A stretch of DNA of 37,009 nt from Salinicola peritrichatus (GTDB lineage: Bacteria > Pseudomonadota > Gammaproteobacteria > Pseudomonadales > Halomonadaceae), in NCBI RefSeq assembly GCF_003206715.1, contig NZ_PZJU01000041.1, positions 1 to 37,009 on the forward strand. The letters run 5' to 3'. The notes beneath the pieces are model-generated. The model was not told the DNA's origin and did not search any database. It worked only from the letters and a program-made list of their open reading frames with translations. Made by a program: the position numbers and the translations under genes. This document shows positions 24,407 to 37,009 of this stretch, one piece after another. The first letter of the stretch is position 1. Each line of letters starts with the position of its first letter.

Positions 24407-24952
24407 TTAGTCCGGGTGCGACTTCTCCTCATCGGGCAACAGCACGACGTCGTTCCCGTCCAGCGCGACGGACCAATGTCGCAGCCGCCGTTCCGGATCC
24501 TCGAGACATTGCCCGTCGCGTAGCCGGAAGTGCTGCTTGTAGATCGGCGAGGCGACCACCAGCTCGCCGCCCAGATCGCCGACGATGCCGCGGCCGATCA
24601 CGTTAGCCCCGGAGAACGGGTCCCGGTTGTCCAGGGCGTAAAGCTCGGCAACGGCTTCGGGTTGCCTAGAAGGCTCATCGGCCCCGTCGGTCCTGTCGGC
24701 GGTTTCGGGCCGACAAGATAGCGGTCGGCGAGGTAGCCCGTCGGCGTCTTCGGCGTCTTCGGGCCGACAAGATAGCGGCCGACAAGGTAGATAGAAAAGC
24801 GCGATCTGATGGCCTGCATGCCAGGCAACGACGCCGGAGCCGGCGACCAGATCCGCTCGGCCGCACAGGCGAACGGGGAGCGCAGGCGCGATGGCCTGCT
24901 CCGCCGGGGTTTTCTGGGTGGCCGGATTTTGTTGTGTAATCAGTTCGCTCAC
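24407..24952 (-). CDS. nirD: Nitrite reductase small subunit NirD with a repeat-bearing insertion
   Basis: Rieske-like small subunit of assimilatory NADH-nitrite reductase, partner of NirB. The frame gives 181 residues against a usual 105-120. The canonical start of the domain (LPVRLCGRADLVAGSGVVAW, then QIALFYL) and end (LYALDNRDPFSGANVIGRG, then SPIYKQHFRL) flank about 45 extra residues (CRPLSCRPE...RQPEAV). The insertion is in frame and falls in the surface loop between two beta strands. The start is GTG at 24952, overlapping the nirB stop as GTGA. Whether the protein still works is uncertain, but both flanks are well kept. The Rieske-type cysteine/histidine ligands are absent, as is usual for NirD. 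Confidence 0.85.
   Translation of the reverse strand: MSELITQQNPATQKTPAEQAIAPALPVRLCGRADLVAGSGVVAWHAGHQIALFYLPCRPLSCRPEDAEDADGLPRRPLSCRPETADRTDGADEPSRQPEAVAELYALDNRDPFSGANVIGRGIVGDLGGELVVASPIYKQHFRLRDGQCLEDPERRLRHWSVALDGNDVVLLPDEEKSHPD
24647..24792. repeat. Repeat-containing insertion inside nirD
   Basis: A 21-bp direct repeat occurs at 24704-24724 and 24758-24778, 54 bp apart (18 codons, so frame is kept). A partial third copy GGCCGACAAGGTAG lies at 24777-24790. Read in nirD it gives repeated RPLSCRPE. Boundaries of the insertion are estimated from the protein and could be off by a few codons. Confidence 0.75.
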
Positions 24953-27507
24953 GAGGTCACCTCCACCGCCAGCGCGGCGATCTCTTCGGGACGTGCCGGG
25001 CGCGGCTGATCGCGTTCGGACACGGCGATGATGTCGGGGTCGCTGCGCTTGTCGTTGACGAAAGTGCGGAAGCGCTTGAGCTTTTCCGGGTCCTTGAGCG
25101 CCCCGGCCCACTCGCACTCGTACTGATCGACCACGTGCTGCATCTGCGCTTCCAGTTCGGCGCCCAGACCCAGGCTGTCCTCGAGAATCACCTGCTTGAG
25201 GTAATCGAGGCCGCCTTCCAGGCTCTCGCGCCACACCGAGGTGCGCTGGAGCTTGTCGGCGGTACGGATGTAGAACATCAAAAAGCGGTCGATGGTCTTG
25301 AGCAGCGTGTCGTCATCGAGATCGGTGGCGAACAGTTCGGCATGGCGCGGGCGCATGCCGCCGTTGCCGCAGACGTAGAGATTCCAGCCGTGCTCGGTGG
25401 CGATCACGCCGACATCCTTGCTCTGCGCCTCGGCGCACTCGCGGGTGCAGCCGGAGACGGCGAACTTGAGCTTGTGCGGCGAACGCAGCCCCTTGTAGCG
25501 ATTCTCGATGATCAGTGCCATGGCGACGCTGTCCTGCACGCCGTAGCGGCACCAGGTGCTGCCGACGCAGGATTTCACCGTGCGCGTCGACTTGCCGTAG
25601 GCGTGGCCGGTCTCGAAGCCGGCAGCGATCAGTTCGCTCCAGATATCCGGCAACTCGTGCAGCTGGGCGCCGAACAGGTCGATGCGCTGGCCGCCGGTGA
25701 TCTTGGTATAGAGGTTGTATTTCTTGGCTACTGCGCCGATGGCGATCAGCTTGTCGGGGGTGATCTCGCCGCCCGGGATACGCGGTACCACCGAGTAGGT
25801 GCCGTTCTTCTGCATGTTGGCCATGAAGGTGTCGTTGGTGTCCTGCAGCGGCACCAGCGACGGATTCATGATCGGCTCGTTCCAGCACGAGGCGAGGATC
25901 GAAGCGACCGCCGGCTTGCAGATATCGCAACCCAGCCGGCCCTTGCCGTGACGGGCGTGCAACTCATCGAAGCTCTTGATGCCTTCGACCCGGATCAGGC
26001 CGTAGAGCTCCTGGCGGGTATAGGCGAAGTGCTCGCACAGGCTGCGATCGACTTCGACGCCGCGGCTTTCCAGCTCGTGTTCGAAGACCTGCTTGAGCAG
26101 TGCCGTGCAGCCGCCACAGCCGGTGCTCGCCTTGGTCTCGGCCTTGAGCGCGCCGAGATCGGTGCAGCCGGCATCGACCGCCTGGCAGATCGCGCCCTTG
26201 GTGACGTTGTGGCACGAGCAGATCATCGCCGTCTCGGGCAGGGCGTCGGCGCCCAGCGTCGGCGCGCCTTCGCTGCTGGGGAGAATCAGCGAGGCCGGGT
26301 CCCTGGGCAGTTCCAGGCCGTTGCTGTAGTACTGCAAAAGAGTGTCGTAGTAGCTGTTGTCGCCGACCAGCATGGCGCCGACCAGCTTCTTGCCGTCGCT
26401 GGAGACCACCAGCTTGCGGTACTCCTGCTTGATCTGGTCCAGATAGCGGTACATGCGCGCCCCGGGAGTGCGGTCGCCATGCGCATCGCCGATCGAGCCG
26501 ACATCGACGCCGAGCAGCTTCAGCTTGGTGCTCATGTCGGCACCCTGAAAGGTGAGTTCGCCCTCGACCAGGGTATCGACGGCGGCCTTGGCCATCTGGT
26601 AGCCGGGGCCCACCAGGCCGAAGATGCTGCCCTGCCATAGCGCCACTTCGCCGATGGCCAGAATGTTCGGATCGCTGGTCCGGCAGTTGTCGTCCACCAC
26701 GACGCCGCCGCGTTCGCCGATCTCCAGCCCACAACCCCGGGCCAGTCGATCCTGGGGACGGATGCCGGCGGAGAACACGATCAAGTCGGTTTCCAGCACT
26801 TTTTCATCCTGGAAGACCATGCGGTGCTGGTGGTCCTGACCGTCCTCGATGCGCTGGGTGGCCCGCCCCGTCAGTACCTGGACGCCCAGTTGCTCGATCT
26901 TTTCGCGCAGCAGATCGCCGCCTTCGGTGTCGACCTGCATCGGCATCAGGCGCGGCGCGAACTCCACCACGGCGGTGTCGAGATTCAGGCCGCGCAGGGC
27001 GTTGGCGGCCTCCAGCCCCAGCAGGCCGCCACCGACCACCACGCCGCTGGAGGCCGTTTCGGCCGCGGCGCGGATCGCATCGAGATCGTCCAGGGTGCGG
27101 TAAACGAAGCAGTTGGGGCGGTCGTTACCCGGAATCGGCGGCACGAAGGGATAGGAGCCGGTGGCCAGTACCAGTTGGTCGTAGGCGTATTCTCCACGGC
27201 CGGTGGAGACGGTACGCGCAGCGCGGTCGATGGCCGTCACTTCTTCGCGCAGGTGCAGATCGATGCCGTGGCGGTCACAGAAATCCGCTTCGTTCAGCGA
27301 CAGCGACTCGGCATCGCGACCGCTGAAGTATTCGGACAGGTGGACGCGGTCGTAGGCGCGACGGCGTTCTTCCCCGAAGATCGTGACGGCATAGCTTTGG
27401 TGAGCGCCGCTCTCGACCAACTGCTCGAGAAAGTGGTGCCCGACCATGCCGTTGCCGATGACGATCAGGCGCGGCGTGTTGGGATTCGAGATGCTTGACG
27501 AGGACAT
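24949..27507 (-). CDS. nirB: NADH-dependent nitrite reductase large subunit NirB
   Basis: Reduces nitrite to ammonium in the cytoplasm using NADH. The 852 residues follow family order. An FAD/NAD domain comes first (VIGNGMVGHHFLEQL, and GGGLLGLEAANALRG near 160). A BFD-like [2Fe-2S] domain has CSCHNVTKGAIC and TGCGGCTALL near 427-465. The C-terminal siroheme/[4Fe-4S] reductase domain has ligand cysteines in CVGSTWC near 646 and CTRECAEAQ near 686. Its start overlaps the stop of the upstream FAD subunit by one base (TGATG) and its stop overlaps nirD, so the three are translationally coupled. Siroheme would be supplied through the nearby CobA. Confidence 0.96.
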   Translation of the reverse strand: MSSSSISNPNTPRLIVIGNGMVGHHFLEQLVESGAHQSYAVTIFGEERRRAYDRVHLSEYFSGRDAESLSLNEADFCDRHGIDLHLREEVTAIDRAARTVSTGRGEYAYDQLVLATGSYPFVPPIPGNDRPNCFVYRTLDDLDAIRAAAETASSGVVVGGGLLGLEAANALRGLNLDTAVVEFAPRLMPMQVDTEGGDLLREKIEQLGVQVLTGRATQRIEDGQDHQHRMVFQDEKVLETDLIVFSAGIRPQDRLARGCGLEIGERGGVVVDDNCRTSDPNILAIGEVALWQGSIFGLVGPGYQMAKAAVDTLVEGELTFQGADMSTKLKLLGVDVGSIGDAHGDRTPGARMYRYLDQIKQEYRKLVVSSDGKKLVGAMLVGDNSYYDTLLQYYSNGLELPRDPASLILPSSEGAPTLGADALPETAMICSCHNVTKGAICQAVDAGCTDLGALKAETKASTGCGGCTALLKQVFEHELESRGVEVDRSLCEHFAYTRQELYGLIRVEGIKSFDELHARHGKGRLGCDICKPAVASILASCWNEPIMNPSLVPLQDTNDTFMANMQKNGTYSVVPRIPGGEITPDKLIAIGAVAKKYNLYTKITGGQRIDLFGAQLHELPDIWSELIAAGFETGHAYGKSTRTVKSCVGSTWCRYGVQDSVAMALIIENRYKGLRSPHKLKFAVSGCTRECAEAQSKDVGVIATEHGWNLYVCGNGGMRPRHAELFATDLDDDTLLKTIDRFLMFYIRTADKLQRTSVWRESLEGGLDYLKQVILEDSLGLGAELEAQMQHVVDQYECEWAGALKDPEKLKRFRTFVNDKRSDPDIIAVSERDQPRPARPEEIAALAVEVTS

Positions 27508-28775
27508 CAGGCTGCCTCCTCCAGATGTTGTGTGGCTTCCGACGCGCCGAACAGCAGCGTGTCGCGGCAGTCGCCGAGCGGGACGCCCGCCTGGGCGAGC
27601 TGATAAAGACGCGGGCCGTCGGCGGTGTCGCCGTAGAGCACCGCACCGTTCAGGCGGTCGTCGCGCAGCAGCAAGCGGCGGTAATCGCCGGCATCGCGGT
27701 CGGCATAAGTCAGGGTTTCGAAGTCGGGAGCGTCGACCGGGCCGAAGGCGTAGAGCGAAATGCCCGCCACCTTGAGCCGGGTTGCGCAGTCGCTGTTGAC
27801 GTAGGGCCGGGGAGCGTCACCGCAGATCACCTCGGCGAGGGTCTCGACCTGCCGCCAGATCGGCTCGACCAGACCCACAGTGCAACCGTCGAATTCGCAG
27901 CATTCGCCCAGCGCATGGATCGATGGCTCGGTGGTGGTCAGGCACGCATCGACGTGAATGCCGGCGCCGACATCGAGCCCCGCCATTCGGCCCAGTTCGG
28001 CATTGGGGGTGATGCCCGCCGCGACGACCACGCAGTCGGCCGGCAGGCGGCGACCATCGGCGAGCGTCACCGCGCGCACCTTGCCGTTTTCGTCTCCCTG
28101 GCAGTCGACCAGGCTGGCGCCGGTCTCGATGGTCAGGCCGCGTCCTTCCAGGCTTTCACGCAGCCAGGCCGCTGCGGTGGCATCCAACTGGCGGTTCATC
28201 AACCGCTCGCTGCGTTGCACAACGGTGACCTGCAAACCCCGCTTGCGCAGTCCCTCCGCCGCCTCCAGACCCAGCAGGCCGCCACCGACGACGATGGCAC
28301 GGCTACCCGGGGGTTGCGCGCTCAGCCAGTCGGCGTCTTCCAGATTGCGGAAGCCGCCGACGTTGCCCAGCCGAATGCCCGGAATGTCGGGCAGTGTCGG
28401 GCGCGAGCCGGTGGCGATGACCAGCCGGTCGTAATCCACGCGGCTGCCCTTGCCGGTGCGCTGACACTCGGTGCGCAGCCAGCGGGCGTGGCGGTCGATG
28501 TCGACCACGCGCTCGCCCAGGCGCCACTCGATACCCGAAGCCTGCGTGTCGCTCAGCTTGAGATCGAGCGCATCGCGGGTGATCTCGCCGGCCAGCCAGG
28601 GGGAGAGCAGGATGCGGTTGTAGGCCGCTGCGGTTTCCTCGCCGATCACCGTGATGCGATCCGGCCGGTCAGGACGGCCATGCAACGCCTGCAGCAGTCG
28701 GTGGCCGGCCATGCCGTTACCGATAATGACCAGATGCTCCCCCGCGAGAGGCGGGGATTGGGTGGTCTTTGCCAT
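27507..28775 (-). CDS. FAD/NAD-dependent electron-transfer subunit for assimilatory nitrate reductase (NasC-like)
   Basis: 422-residue flavoprotein similar to the N-terminal FAD/NAD half of NirB, with VIIGNGMAGHRLLQALHG (FAD) and IVVGGGLLGLEAAEGLRKRG (NAD). It lacks the siroheme domain and the BFD motif. In other bacteria such subunits pass electrons from NADH to the NasA nitrate reductase, here encoded divergently. Rubredoxin reductase-like roles are the main alternative. I chose the ATG at 28775 (MAKTTQSPPL), with GGGAG seven bases upstream. It is first in the nirB operon and lies behind a NasR-type leader. Confidence 0.87.
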   Translation of the reverse strand: MAKTTQSPPLAGEHLVIIGNGMAGHRLLQALHGRPDRPDRITVIGEETAAAYNRILLSPWLAGEITRDALDLKLSDTQASGIEWRLGERVVDIDRHARWLRTECQRTGKGSRVDYDRLVIATGSRPTLPDIPGIRLGNVGGFRNLEDADWLSAQPPGSRAIVVGGGLLGLEAAEGLRKRGLQVTVVQRSERLMNRQLDATAAAWLRESLEGRGLTIETGASLVDCQGDENGKVRAVTLADGRRLPADCVVVAAGITPNAELGRMAGLDVGAGIHVDACLTTTEPSIHALGECCEFDGCTVGLVEPIWRQVETLAEVICGDAPRPYVNSDCATRLKVAGISLYAFGPVDAPDFETLTYADRDAGDYRRLLLRDDRLNGAVLYGDTADGPRLYQLAQAGVPLGDCRDTLLFGASEATQHLEEAA

Positions 28776-28836
28776 GGTTATCTCCCGTCGTGTGCGGCGA
28801 TGACTCGACTGATAAGCCGAGCACACCGACGCAACG

Positions 28837-28904
28837 AAAAAAGGCGCCTGATGACACGAAGGCCGGCTTCCGAGAGCTTGGGCTTCGTGGCATCAGGCGC
28901 CTTT
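28837..28904 (-). terminator. Leader terminator (attenuator) of the nirB operon
   Basis: On the minus strand a 22-bp stem with one mismatch (28883-28904 pairing with 28840-28861) is followed by six T. It sits 61 bp before the first start codon, so it must be passed to express the operon. Its 5' strand begins AAAGGCGCCTG, which is the loop and 3' arm of the P2 hairpin. That makes P2 and the terminator mutually exclusive. Confidence 0.9.
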
Positions 28905-28909
28905 GCCTG
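28894..28909 (-). promoter_or_regulatory. ANTAR-type P2 antiterminator hairpin, nirB leader
   Basis: RNA CAGGC-AAAGGC-GCCTG: a 5-bp stem and a hexaloop with A at position 1 and G at position 4, the known ANTAR target rule. It overlaps the terminator 5' strand. It lies 1 bp from the 144-bp repeat. Confidence 0.8.
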
Positions 28910-28910
28910 A

Positions 28911-29054
28911 AGGAAACACTGCATAAATGTCTGCGCAGGCGAACCGCTGCGTTGCGCGGTGCTAGCAATCCTCACCTATACCCCATAGGCTCCGGTTGCT
29001 GCGCTCCGTGCGCCTTGCGCTTCATCCTGCTCGCCGTTTTATTCAGCGGTTCCT
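28911..29054. repeat. 144-bp repeat element inserted in the nirB leader
   Basis: Terminal inverted repeats AGGAAACACTGCATAAA and AGGAACCGCTGAATAAA bound the element, which has no ORF. A second copy begins at 36922 upstream of nasR in the same orientation and is cut by the window end. Flanking GA or TGA on both sides may be a target duplication but is too short to prove. It separates P1 from P2 in the leader. Confidence 0.8.
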
Positions 29055-29121
29055 GAATTCCGCTATGACGTTTCGGTCCGTCTGGCACGGTGCTGCGACA
29101 TTGCGGCGACCGGCCGACGCT

Positions 29122-29141
29122 AGCGACCGTCATTGATCGCT
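29122..29141 (-). promoter_or_regulatory. ANTAR-type P1 hairpin, nirB leader
   Basis: RNA stem AGCGATC/GGTCGCT (7 bp, one G-U) with hexaloop AATGAC, A1 and G4. It starts about 3 nt after the predicted transcription start. Its partner P2 is 212 nt downstream because of the inserted repeat. Confidence 0.75.
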
Positions 29142-29154
29142 GGCATGCGTGCCA

Positions 29155-29170
29155 AGCGAAAGGTGTGCCA
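29155..29170 (-). promoter_or_regulatory. Sigma-54-type promoter of the nirB operon
   Basis: TGGCACACCTTTCGCT on the minus strand: GG and GC are 10 bases apart as required, and the -24 box TGGCAC is perfect. Start near 29144. Confidence 0.7.
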
Positions 29171-29186
29171 GATCGACGATCTGGCA
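29166..29186. promoter_or_regulatory. Perfect 21-bp palindrome overlapping the nirB promoter
   Basis: TGCCAGATCG and CGATCTGGCA flank a single A. Its left half contains the -24 TGGCA of the nirB promoter. It could bind a regulator that competes with RNA polymerase. A second TGGCA-TGCG-TGCCA dyad lies at 29141-29154. Confidence 0.5.
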
Positions 29187-29247
29187 GACGATTCAGTCGC
29201 TTGGTAGCGATCGCGAAGGCGAAAAAGCGGCCTGCAACGGTCTGGCT

Positions 29248-29295
29248 TGCTCAAGCCCGGTGCAGATCGATGCGTTTTCGCACCAAAGAAAAGCA
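29248..29295. promoter_or_regulatory. Pair of NtrC-like sites between the divergent promoters
   Basis: TGCTCA-N5-GGTGCA (29248-29264) and CGCACC-N5-AAAGCA (29279-29295) resemble the NtrC consensus TGCACC-N5-GGTGCA, with one strong half each. Their centres are 31 bp apart, as between tandem NtrC sites. The midpoint is about 128 and 136 bp upstream of the two predicted starts. Confidence 0.55.
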
Positions 29296-29381
29296 ATACG
29301 CTTCGCGGACGCCGCCGTCGATGACGGGAGCGTTTCTCGAGAATCGGTCAGGTCGCTGTCCCGCAAGTAAAAAATGATCGT

Positions 29382-29423: not shown

Positions 29424-29444
29424 CGCTTGCCAATGCCGGCAGCG
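29424..29444 (+). promoter_or_regulatory. ANTAR-type P1 hairpin, nasA leader
   Basis: Stem CGCTTGCC/GGCAGCG with one bulged T and hexaloop AATGCC, A1 and G4. A further hairpin (29477-29503) lies between it and P2. Confidence 0.75.
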
Positions 29445-29505: not shown

Positions 29506-29552
29506 CAGGCAAAGAGGCCTGACGTCACGTTAGTGATGTCGGGCCTCTTTGC
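29506..29552 (+). promoter_or_regulatory. P2 antiterminator and overlapping leader terminator, nasA leader
   Basis: P2 is CAGGC-AAAGAG-GCCTG (29506-29521), with A1 and G4 in the loop. The terminator is a 20-bp stem (29509-29528 with 29533-29552, two G-U) and a GTTA loop, ending CTCTTTGCGTTT, so the U-tract is weak. P2 loop and 3' arm form the start of the terminator stem. The nasA Shine-Dalgarno GGGAGG follows directly. Confidence 0.85.
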
Positions 29553-29569: not shown

Positions 29570-32353
29570 ATGTCCGAACCGCGCACCACCACCTGCCCGC
29601 CTTTTCAGGGCACCACCGCCTGCCCGCCTTCCAAGGGCACCACCACCTGCCCGCCTTCCAAGGGCACCACTACCTGCCCGTATTGCGGCGTCGGTTGCGG
29701 TGTCGTCGCCACTATCGAGGATGGCGCGTTGACCGGCGTCGCCGGTGATGCCGAGCATCCCGCGAACCAGGGCAGGCTCTGCGTGAAGGGGAGTGCGTTG
29801 CATGAAACCCTTGGCGCCGAGGGGCGACTGTTGCAACCCCATGTGGACGGCCAGGCGGTGACCTGGGAATACGCGCTGGAGTGCGTTGCCGAGCGCCTGG
29901 CTGCCACCCGGCGCGAGCATGGCCGCGAGTCGGTGGCCGCGTATCTTTCCGGGCAGTTGCTGACCGAGGACTATTACGTCGCCAACAAGCTGTTCAAGGG
30001 GTTCCTCGGCACGCCCCACGTCGACACCAATTCGCGCCTGTGCATGGCCTCGGCGGTGGCTGCCTACAAGCGATCCTTCGGCGCCGATGCGGTGCCGTGC
30101 TGCTACGAGGATCTGGAGTGCGCGGAACTGGTGGTGCTGGTGGGGTCCAATCTGGCCTGGAATCATCCGGTGCTCTACCAGCGTTTGAAAGCAGCCAAGA
30201 GCCGCAATCCGCTGATGCGCGTGGTGGTGATCGATCCGCGCGTGACCGACAGCTGCGAGATCGCCGATCTCTATCTCGGCATTGCCCCCGGCAGCGATGC
30301 GCGGCTGTTCAATGGCCTGCTGGCCTGGATGCATGCCACTGGCCGGATCGACCGGCTCTACCTCGAGCGCCATACCCAGGGTTTCGAGGAAGCCTTGCAG
30401 GCGGCCCGGGAGGACGATGTCGGCATCGAGGCGGTCGCCCGTGACTGCGATGTCGACGCCGAGCGGCTCGAAACCTTCTACTACTGGTTCGCGACGCAAC
30501 TGCACGTGGTGACGCTCTACTCCCAGGGGATCAATCAGTCGAGCAGTGGCACCGACAAGTGCCAGGCGATCATCAACTGTCATCTGGCGGGTGGCAAGCT
30601 GGGCATGCCGGGGGCGGGGCCGTTCTCGATCACCGGCCAGCCCAACGCCATGGGCGGGCGCGAAGTCGGCGGCCTCGCCAACCAGCTCGCCGCCCACATG
30701 GACTACCACACGCCCGGCGCCATCGACCGGGTCACCCGCTTCTGGACGACGCTGAGCCTGACGCCGGCGCTGCCGACGGGGCCGGGTTTGAAAGCGGTGG
30801 AGCTGTTCGATGCCATCGAGCGCGGCGAGATTCGCGCCGTCTGGATCATGGCGACCAATCCGGTGGTCAGCCTGCCCGAGGCCAATCGGATCAAGCGCAT
30901 TCTAGCCCAGTGCCCGCTGGTGATCGTCTCCGACTGCATGGCCAACGCCGACATTCTGGCGGTGGCGGATATCGTGCTGCCGGCGACCAGCTGGTCGGAG
31001 AAGGATGGCACCGTGACCAATTCTGAGCGCTGCATTTCGCGCCAGCGCGGGCTGCTGCCGCCGCCCTTTGATGCGCGCCACGACTGGTGGATCATGAGCC
31101 AGGTCGCCGCTCGTCTGGGCTACGCCGAAGCCTTCGATTATCGCCACCCGGCGGAGATATTCGATGAGCACGCACGCCTGTCTGGCTTCGAAAACCGTGG
31201 CGAGAGCCGGCGTCCCTTCGATATCTCGGCGCTGGCGGGGCTCGGTCGCGCGGGATACGACGCCCTCGCGCCGATCCAGTGGCCGGTCACTGCCGAGGCG
31301 CCTAAAGGCACGGCACGGCTGTTCGAGTCGGGTCGCTTCGCCACGCCGGATGGCCTGGCGCGGCTGCTGCCGGTGCGGCCGCGCCAGCCGGAGCAGGCGG
31401 TGTCGCCGGCGCGGCCACTGCGTCTCAATACCGGCCGCGTGCGCGATCAATGGCACACCATGACTCGCACCGGGCGCGCCGCGCGACTGATGAACCATCG
31501 CAGCGAGCCGTTCGTCGATATTCACCCGCTGGACGCCGAGACTTTCAGCGTGGCCGACCAGCAACTGGTGGAACTGAGCGGTATCGATGGCTGCTATCGG
31601 GGGCGCGCGCGTCTGGCCAAGGGTCAGCGACGGGGCGAACTGTTCGTGCCGATGCACTGGAACGAGGCGTTCAGTGGCCAGGCCAAGGCCAACGGCCTGA
31701 TCGCGCCGGTGACCGATCCCATCTCGGGCCAGCCGGAATCGAAGCAGGGCGCGGTCGGCCTGCGTCCGCTGCCGCTGGCGTGGGAGGCGACCTTGATCGT
31801 CGCGGCCGATCTCGCCGCCGAGATCGATCCGACCCTTGATTGCGAATACTGGGCGCGTATTCCGCTCGATCACGCGCTGCGCTGGCAATTGGGCGGTAGT
31901 CCGCAAGCCGGCGATCGCGACTGGCTGGCGTGGGCCGCCACTTACCTGCCGGTGCCGGCATCGCAATGGAGCCGTGACGATGCTCGCGGGCGGCTGCGTG
32001 TCAGCGGGATCGAACAGGGCCGGTTGCGCTGGTGGCTGATGGTCGGGCCGCCGCAGTCGCTGCCGGCGCTGCATTGGCTGGATGCCTGTTTTGCGCGTGC
32101 TCCCGATGCAGTGCTCGACCCGGAAACGCGGCGCCGTATTCTGGCCGGCTGCGGCAGCGGCGCGCGCAACGATGGCCCGATCGTCTGCAGTTGCCATCAG
32201 GTCGGGCAGAACTCGATCATTGCCGCCATCCGCGCCGGCGATACCAGTGTCGAGGCGCTGGGGGCCCGCCTGGCCTGCGGCACGCAGTGCGGTTCCTGCC
32301 AACCCGAATTGAAAGCCCTGCTGGAAGAGGAGAACGCCCATGCCAGCCTGTAA
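29570..32353 (+). CDS. nasA: Assimilatory nitrate reductase, molybdopterin catalytic subunit
   Basis: Cytoplasmic nitrate reductase of the NasA/NarB type (927 residues), reducing nitrate to nitrite with a bis-MGD cofactor. The N-terminal [4Fe-4S] site is CPYCGVGCG with a fourth cysteine in GRLCVKG. The likely molybdenum ligand is the cysteine of NSRLCMASA near residue 155. The body has GINQSSSGTDKCQAIINCHL and PNAMGGREVGGLANQLA. The C-terminus carries a BFD-like [2Fe-2S] domain (CSCHQVG near 871, CGTQCGSC), which accepts electrons from the FAD subunit. Before the iron-sulfur motif is a threefold 9-residue repeat. The ATG at 29570 has GGGAGG upstream. The downstream cobA overlaps it by 14 bp. 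Confidence 0.96.
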   Translation: MSEPRTTTCPPFQGTTACPPSKGTTTCPPSKGTTTCPYCGVGCGVVATIEDGALTGVAGDAEHPANQGRLCVKGSALHETLGAEGRLLQPHVDGQAVTWEYALECVAERLAATRREHGRESVAAYLSGQLLTEDYYVANKLFKGFLGTPHVDTNSRLCMASAVAAYKRSFGADAVPCCYEDLECAELVVLVGSNLAWNHPVLYQRLKAAKSRNPLMRVVVIDPRVTDSCEIADLYLGIAPGSDARLFNGLLAWMHATGRIDRLYLERHTQGFEEALQAAREDDVGIEAVARDCDVDAERLETFYYWFATQLHVVTLYSQGINQSSSGTDKCQAIINCHLAGGKLGMPGAGPFSITGQPNAMGGREVGGLANQLAAHMDYHTPGAIDRVTRFWTTLSLTPALPTGPGLKAVELFDAIERGEIRAVWIMATNPVVSLPEANRIKRILAQCPLVIVSDCMANADILAVADIVLPATSWSEKDGTVTNSERCISRQRGLLPPPFDARHDWWIMSQVAARLGYAEAFDYRHPAEIFDEHARLSGFENRGESRRPFDISALAGLGRAGYDALAPIQWPVTAEAPKGTARLFESGRFATPDGLARLLPVRPRQPEQAVSPARPLRLNTGRVRDQWHTMTRTGRAARLMNHRSEPFVDIHPLDAETFSVADQQLVELSGIDGCYRGRARLAKGQRRGELFVPMHWNEAFSGQAKANGLIAPVTDPISGQPESKQGAVGLRPLPLAWEATLIVAADLAAEIDPTLDCEYWARIPLDHALRWQLGGSPQAGDRDWLAWAATYLPVPASQWSRDDARGRLRVSGIEQGRLRWWLMVGPPQSLPALHWLDACFARAPDAVLDPETRRRILAGCGSGARNDGPIVCSCHQVGQNSIIAAIRAGDTSVEALGARLACGTQCGSCQPELKALLEEENAHASL
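29588..29680. repeat. 27-bp tandem repeat in the nasA N-terminus
   Basis: Three 27-bp units (29588-29614, 29615-29641, 29642-29668) encode TTCPPFQGT, TACPPSKGT and TTCPPSKGT. A partial fourth unit, TTCP, is the true start of the iron-sulfur motif. Units two and three differ by one base, so the last duplication is recent. Confidence 0.92.
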
Positions 32354-35265: not shown

Positions 35266-35326
35266 AAAAAAACGGCGCCCATCTCTCGTCATGCGCTGCA
35301 TGAAGAGTCGATGGACGCCGTTGTCC
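35266..35326 (-). promoter_or_regulatory. P2 antiterminator and overlapping leader terminator, narK leader
   Basis: The terminator stem (35271-35293 with 35299-35322, a few mismatches) is followed by seven T on the minus strand. P2 is GGAC-AACGGC-GTCC (35313-35326), A1 and G4, whose loop and 3' arm start the terminator. An extra hexaloop GGCC-ACCGTC-GGCC (35339-35352) and a plain hairpin (35370-35391) lie between P1 and P2. Confidence 0.82.
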
Positions 35327-35394
35327 GTTATGGCAGCCGGCCGACGGTGGCCTGACTGCTGAATGATTCGAGATCGCCATGTGACGATCTCTGG

Positions 35395-35414
35395 TCGAGC
35401 CGCCATTGGCTCGA
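35395..35414 (-). promoter_or_regulatory. ANTAR-type P1 hairpin, narK leader
   Basis: Perfect 7-bp stem TCGAGCC/GGCTCGA with hexaloop AATGGC (A1, G4), starting about 4 nt after the predicted transcript start. Confidence 0.8.
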
Positions 35415-36921: not shown

Positions 36922-37009
36922 GGGAAACACTGCATAAATGTCTGCGCAGGCGAATCGCTGCGTTGCGCGCTGCTGGAGCGCCAGCCCGGTCAAAATCCTC
37001 ACCTATACC
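36922..37009. repeat. Second copy of the 144-bp repeat, cut by the window end
   Basis: GGGAAACACTGCATAAATG onward matches 28911-28985 almost base for base, up to ATCCTCACCTATACC. It has about 20 extra bases (GGAGCGCCAGCCCGGTCAAA region). It lies 33 bp upstream of nasR in the same orientation as the copy upstream of the nirB operon. Confidence 0.88.

Follow-up and report, generated by a model that had tools for sequence, protein, structure and literature searches.

A MITE between the two hairpins of a putative NasR-type antitermination leader upstream of nirB in Salinicola peritrichatus

Among the closest described counterparts of the leader studied here is that of nasF in Klebsiella oxytoca, which is controlled by the NIT-ANTAR regulator NasR and carries two hairpins, P1 and P2, each with a hexaloop that has A at position 1 and G at position 4 (A1/G4) and is closed by a C:G pair, P2 overlapping the intrinsic terminator, as described in PMC7496416, PMC3369931 and PMC3369936. 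The values reported for NasR are 12 µM on P2 alone and 1 µM on both hairpins, and the motif selected by NasR has A1, G4 and the C:G closing pair (PMC7496416). The eut leaders of Enterococcus faecalis, controlled by EutV, are similar to the present leader in having a dual hexaloop motif that overlaps a terminator, but they differ from it in that their linker is 5–12 nt long and intolerant of change and they are governed by a phosphorylated response regulator (PMC3369931, PMC8934654). With the linker set to 3 or 14 nt, induction by EutV is reported to drop drastically (PMC3369931); 20 additional nt in the linker abolished antitermination in vitro, and the EutV dimer was argued to be unable to contact both hairpins at once, the spacing being strict (PMC8934654). 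For inclusion in a curated set of actinobacterial ANTAR RNAs, linkers had to be 2–25 nt long, a range that is a selection rule and not a measured limit (PMC8164766). With regard to transposable elements in transcripts, a review (PMC10969869) describes that RNase III cleaves transcripts bearing Correia elements; judged by such descriptions, Correia elements and other transcribed MITEs resemble the element presented below as short hairpin elements in mRNA that can affect the mRNA, whereas the element in the nirB leader sits between two parts of one regulatory RNA. We found no published title or abstract describing an ANTAR leader that contains a MITE, or long linkers in such leaders, which does not prove their absence, and none describing the MITE family of the nirB leader.

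The window, i.e. the whole stretch of 37,009 nucleotides that was analysed, contains a leader of this build 5' of the nirB operon, together with a gene for its presumed regulator:

29156–29170, minus strand: sigma54-like promoter TGGCACACCTTTCGC (GG-N10-GC), called from the sequence
29122–29141, minus strand: P1, AGCGATC[AATGAC]GGTCGCT, 7-bp stem, hexaloop with A1 and G4, C:G closing pair, starting at about +4
29054–29057, minus strand: left copy of the target-site duplication, TTCA
28912–29053, minus strand: MITE, 142 bp, ends GGAACCGCTGAATAAA and, inverted, GGAAACACTGCATAAA, predicted to form a single long hairpin
28908–28911, minus strand: right copy of the target-site duplication, TTCA, its last three bases being the first three of the P2 stem
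28893–28910, minus strand: P2, antiterminator hairpin TCAGGC[AAAGGC]GCCTGA, 6-bp stem (5-bp core 28894–28909)
28838–28904, minus strand: intrinsic terminator, overlapping the loop and 3' arm of P2, with a T run at its end
27507–28775, minus strand: first gene of the operon, open frame of 422 aa for a NirB-like FAD/NAD(P) reductase, below the curated cut-off for NirB
24949–27507, minus strand: nirB, nitrite reductase large subunit, open frame of 852 aa
35597–36889, minus strand: nasR, open frame of 430 aa for a NIT + ANTAR protein, the presumed regulator

An earlier note on this DNA had placed P1 and P2 exactly where we find them, 212 nt apart. The hexaloops of both hairpins have A at position 1 and G at position 4, as expected of ANTAR targets, and both are closed by the C:G pair that was described for NasR from SELEX (PMC7496416). 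P2 and the terminator are predicted to exclude each other, the probability of P2 falling from 0.953 before to 0.000 once the terminator is included. The product of nasR matches both PF08376 and PF03861 above cut-off, and we regard the nirB leader, judged by its sequence, as a putative antitermination leader of the ANTAR/NasR type. At gathering score, Rfam matched nothing in the window, and the nirB leader is thus not covered by a curated family; four sub-threshold matches fell within it (lowest E-value 0.041). The sigma54 consensus and the spacing from −12 to +1, both as we take them to be, were used to call the promoter and to predict the transcription start at about 29144. A sigma54-like motif, TGGC-N9-[GT]C, is found at a similar distance 5' of P1 in 20 of 22 distinct relatives, which is a raw count without a chance baseline, and P1 begins at +3 to +14 from the start predicted by this motif in 20 of the 22. 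A hexaloop hairpin of the P1 type arises by chance in a given 50 nt with a frequency of 0.0005 for stems of at least 7 bp and 0.005 for stems of at least 5 bp (2000 shuffles). That P1 is the NasR site is supported by its position behind a promoter-like motif, by the letters of its loop and by stems that differ; the pairing of its stem, on which the search was based, is no independent evidence. As far as the sequences tell, the sigma54-like promoter, the start-proximal P1 (+3 to +14) and the P2 fused to the terminator are what is constant across these leaders.

Outside the family, NasR was found in six of 274 class genomes, in addition to our own genome (G000) and G031, and among the regions of these six one leader passed our scan (L164, linker 17 nt). 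Within the window, the leaders of narK and nasA are built like that of nirB:

35395–35414, minus strand: P1 of the narK leader, TCGAGCC[AATGGC]GGCTCGA
35313–35326, minus strand: P2 of the narK leader, GGAC[AACGGC]GTCC, overlapping its terminator
29427–29442, plus strand: P1 of the nasA leader, TTGCC[AATGCC]GGCAG
29506–29521, plus strand: P2 of the nasA leader, CAGGC[AAAGAG]GCCTG

A motif scan of the nasA leader gave no sigma54-like motif at the expected place.

The element between P1 and P2 of the nirB leader had previously been described as a 144-bp repeat. It is indeed a repeat and was inserted, but a comparison of 40 copies sets its ends at GGAAACGCTGAATAAA and, inverted, GGAAACACTGCATAAA, which gives a MITE proper of 142 bp and, together with the 4-bp duplication, 146 nt added to the leader. 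Our own genome holds at least 41 matches to the MITE at a minimum of 40 places (40 of 99 candidates were scored in the search) and, with at most two mismatches allowed, 56 left ends; the left end of the family occurs in 15 of the 18 genus genomes, our own included. An exact 4-bp target duplication flanks the called ends in 15 of the 40 copies of our own genome, the other 25 including copies cut by contig ends or misread by the end-finder. The sequence YTAR, which we take to be the target of the IS5 group, fits eight of these 15 duplications (CTAA four times, TTAG four times), and the TTCA of the nirB copy does not strictly fit it. In S. salarius (G013) we found an IS of 1226 bp with inverted ends of the same kind, a CTAG duplication and an open frame of 332 aa, the protein of which lies above cut-off for NCBIfam NF033581 (IS5 family transposase) and for Pfam DDE_Tnp_1 and DUF772. 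The terminal inverted repeats shared with the MITE read GGAAACGCTGAACAA and GGAAACGCTGCATAAA at L148, the IS whose protein passes NF033581. The nirB element has in common with IS5-family IS and the MITEs derived from them the GGAAACGCTG-type inverted ends, the target duplications of 4 bp and the existence of a full-length relative with an IS5-family transposase; unlike an IS of that family, it is without coding capacity, and it is present in many copies that carry no transposase gene. Given the shared ends and the NF033581-passing protein in G013, the 142-bp element is best read as a non-autonomous MITE of the IS5-type family of that genome, with mobilisation by the family transposase being putative.

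We sought two transposase families, DDE_Tnp_1 and DUF772, the latter being found in three of the 18 genus genomes. DDE_Tnp_1 gave eight matches in our own genome, and loci on two contigs, C104 and C22, have MITE-related ends (L101, L104, L146, L149). Both were considered as the mobilising element and rejected, because in each a single in-frame TAG interrupts one of the two matched domains; the open full-length relative is that of G013. With these stops in the IS relatives of its own genome, the MITE may at present be without an active helper. A plasmid search gave one match, to positions 67440–67582 of the Nitrosomonas plasmid NZ_CP133084.1 (full length, 70% identity), which suggests that the MITE family extends beyond Salinicola.

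An empty site in close relatives had been set beforehand as a test of the insertion, and such sites are present in all ten genus-mates in which we found this leader (G001, G004, G006, G010, G011, G012, G013, G014, G015 and G016). Of 151 family genomes searched for orthologues of the first gene, 108 matched, and 30 loci were fetched; a second search added 36 named loci, some of them from the same genomes as the first 30. The MITE lies 5' of the first gene in one of these 66 loci, our own (BLAST, E-values up to 0.001), and a BLAST of the MITE against 20 fetched regions, that of G010 included, gave no match. The leader of G010 precedes a NirB-like frame, while the other nine genus-mates come from the search for first-gene orthologues; the count leaves out seven genus genomes, six of which have no first-gene match at the threshold and one of which (G017) has in-frame stops. 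The P2 letters are identical in the ten genus-mates. Their empty sites read TTCAGGCAAAGGCGCC, in which the TTCA target runs into the start of the 5' arm of P2. The former description of an element that landed without touching either hairpin consequently needs qualification: P2 is whole, but the target duplication includes the first three bases of its 5' arm, and it is for this reason that P2 survives. Read from the sequence, the insertion rebuilt the hairpin, since the duplicated TTCA stands again before GGC and the stem is complete, while cleavage a few positions further along would have split it. The case provides an example of an RNA hairpin that was cut into by an insertion and yet spared through the target duplication. 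Moreover, the matching TTCA on both sides speaks against an artificial junction created at the repeat in the draft assembly.

Next we consider the length of the linker. Altogether 56 loci (the first 30 and 26 of the 36 named ones) were scanned for P1, P2 and terminator. Half of them, 28, lack the full motif by our rule and show both hairpins without a terminator, one hairpin or none; the 28 that passed consist of our own locus, five repeats of a genome or leader already counted, and the 22 distinct relatives. The scan takes the nearest hairpin as P1, except that the promoter-anchored hairpin was used for two S. salarius strains, which have a second A1/G4 hairpin nearer to P2 (linkers of 82 and 98 nt). 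In the 20 promoter-anchored relatives the P1–P2 linkers range from 24 to 155 nt when uniform 5-bp stems are assumed; the linker of G010, determined separately, is 89 nt. By the same rule our own linker is 214 nt, or 68 nt without the insert, which is the remainder formerly claimed; by the stems used for that claim the numbers are 212 and 66. Even as 212 nt it is longer than the longest linker found in a relative. The equality of the remainder with the narK linker, which had been put forward as evidence, must be ascribed to chance, as the linkers of the relatives vary over the range given above and change by tandem duplication; the uniform rule gives 69 nt for narK and 63 nt for nasA. Two pairs of leaders illustrate this kind of change. 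Those of G015 and G006 are near-identical, with linkers of 25 and 73 nt, the 48 nt of difference being repeats; in two S. salarius strains a 16-nt tandem duplication accounts for linkers of 114 and 130 nt. Within both pairs the letters of P1, P2 and terminator are unchanged. From these sequences we infer that the linker in this family of NasR-type leaders most likely tolerates changes in length. The linker of 212 nt lies outside the short linkers of the eut (5–12 nt) and actinobacterial (2–25 nt) leaders, and compared with nasF the feature to be set beside it is a linker of 24–155 nt in the relatives and 212 nt here. The nirB leader is nevertheless a variant of the NasR-type kind, as the published ranges describe other ANTAR systems and do not define NasR leaders. 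If P1 is the NasR site, the leaders examined here would not obey a spacing rule of the EutV type.

Repeat-expanded linkers adjoin the 5' arm of P2 in two nirB leaders (L083 of G006 and L073 of G013), with ATTCAGGC-like units, and a narK-type leader of G046 (L183) has a linker of 120 nt with four 16-nt repeats; outside the window, "narK-type" refers to likeness of P2 and not to a check of the gene. Five of the ten narK-type leaders of the family f1 (five of the eight from the genus) contain an extra A1/G4 hexaloop hairpin about 10 nt from P2, in addition to the start-proximal one. These are the leader in the window (35339–35352) and L170, L172, L173 and L174, and their stems differ (GGCC/GGCC, CGGTC/GACCG, CGGCC/GGCCG and CGGCC/GGTCG). 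Close spacing could still matter in narK-type leaders with such a hairpin.

The folding prediction closes the whole MITE, from one end to the other, into a single hairpin (z = −3.2 against 300 shuffles); the earlier note had considered that the palindromic element may fold. In an alignment of 20 copies, both partners have changed in nine of the 41 base pairs of the consensus hairpin, compared to a mean of 3.4 in shuffled and 1–4 in slid controls. The alignment covers 20 of about 40 copies, nearly all near full length, and since the structure was derived from the same alignment and the copies are related, the covariation is supporting evidence, short of proof, for a hairpin that has been maintained within the family. 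For the nascent leader from its predicted start to the end of P2, the predicted probabilities of P1 and P2 are 0.935 and 0.952 with the MITE and 0.915 and 0.952 without it; with 9 nt instead of 3 nt 5' of P1, they are 0.991 and 0.953 in both cases. Shuffled inserts leave both hairpins at 0.9 or above in 125 of 300 cases, bring one of them below 0.9 in 175 of 300 and P2 below 0.5 in 41 of 300. The folding model thus suggests that the MITE hairpin insulates, being self-contained and leaving P1 and P2 undisturbed. The further idea that the palindrome brings P1 and P2 together was not borne out. The predicted path between the hairpins is similar with and without the MITE (median 15 and 16 units), and of up to 200 dinucleotide shuffles of the linker at equal length, a fraction of 0.59 has a path no longer than the native one. 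A role of the palindrome as a special compactor or bridge was rejected on this ground. Across 23 leaders, with the nearest hairpin taken as P1 for S. salarius, natural linkers were not consistently more compact than their shuffles, the fraction at or below the observed value ranging from 0.12 to 1.0. A rough chain estimate, for which we assumed the chain parameters, gives an effective hairpin concentration of about 1.1 mM at 66 nt and about 0.19 mM at an unstructured 212 nt. As the latter is above the 12 µM of NasR on P2 alone, the model indicates that NasR tethered at P1 could still reach P2 across the long linker.

Taken together, we consider it probable that the MITE is a tolerated insertion in a length-tolerant linker and that nitrate-dependent readthrough is largely intact. 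An IS5-family MITE would have transposed into the linker of the NasR leader at the 5' base of P2, and the staggered cut would have duplicated TTCA and so restored the 5' arm. Transcription would start at the sigma54-type promoter a few bases before P1; the nitrate-loaded NasR dimer would first bind P1, close to where the RNA begins, and next P2, the formation of which would block the overlapping terminator. P1 would accordingly keep its place at the transcript start and P2 its place at the terminator, with the linker between them free in length, and with variable linkers between fixed hairpins in the relatives, the additional 146 nt, of which the MITE part would form a hairpin of its own, most likely leave readthrough largely intact. 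The longer transcript might also give NasR more time to load P1. It is unlikely, in our judgement, that the insertion instead uncouples the operon, with P1 and P2 too far apart for one NasR dimer, termination by default and nirB low or lost under nitrate. Spacing does matter in at least one ANTAR system, the tight one reported for EutV (PMC3369931, PMC8934654), which by analogy speaks against tolerance, and the curated actinobacterial RNAs were selected with linkers of 2–25 nt (PMC8164766). However, relatives with linkers of 24–155 nt have the same kind of P1, P2 and terminator, the genes downstream are still open frames, and P1, P2 and terminator are without decay although the nirB copy of the MITE differs from the majority of the 20 aligned copies at six of 142 positions, a number that is weak as a clock.

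That the MITE mainly changes the dose appears more doubtful again. Its 142 nt could delay the synthesis of P2 and terminator and thereby prolong the loading of NasR, or RNase III could cut the MITE hairpin and so trim the mRNA after the decision has been made. The predicted end-to-end hairpin ends directly beside P2, and the review cited above describes RNase III cleavage of transcripts bearing Correia elements (PMC10969869), but the duplex of this MITE has mismatches; moreover, such an effect is compatible with a tolerated insertion and does not exclude it. Least of all do we expect that the MITE brings a promoter of its own or a nearer ANTAR hairpin that replaces P1, which seems highly improbable. 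MITEs can carry promoters, but a scan for sigma70-type promoters gave none in 28780–29300, and a start inside the MITE would still meet the terminator, now without P1. A different P1 nearer to P2 was a point on which the claim of an insertion between P1 and P2 had been made to depend, and a search of the window for A1/G4 hexaloop hairpins (stems of at least 3 bp) ending within 2–34 nt of the nirB P2 gave none.

For the family as a whole, the balance tips slightly towards a more general reading, namely that its NasR leaders break the EutV spacing rule, P1 serving as a loading site held at the start and P2 being tied to the terminator, with any self-contained RNA of 24 to more than 200 nt in between. 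If this is true, the MITE represents a natural linker-insertion experiment in which a dimeric ANTAR protein acts across a long and folded RNA tether. The question it bears on is whether an ANTAR dimer engages its two hairpins simultaneously or by hand-over from P1 to P2, and natural leaders of the same build with linkers of 24 to 212 nt, near-identical pairs among them, are ready material for testing this.

A second copy of the same MITE family is located close to the regulator gene:

36923–37009 (extending to 37074 on the contig), minus strand: MITE copy with a CGAT duplication, 33 nt before the ATG of nasR

The MITE is absent from the ten other nasR upstream regions of the genus that were examined, and this copy may alter nasR expression. 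The presence of two copies within 8 kb in one regulon was considered as meaningful in itself and dismissed, as other pairs are equally close (on C13 and C74).

Tandem repeats are also seen in two coding regions of the window. The small Rieske-type frame that follows nirB (24407–24949), nirD by position, contains a 54-nt unit in tandem (24683–24790, 81% alike), and its Pfam domain match is confined to the C-terminal part. At the 5' coding end of nasA, a 27-nt repeat of about 3.6 units (29583–29680) encodes a repeated GTTTCPPSK-like stretch directly before the CPYCGVGC motif.
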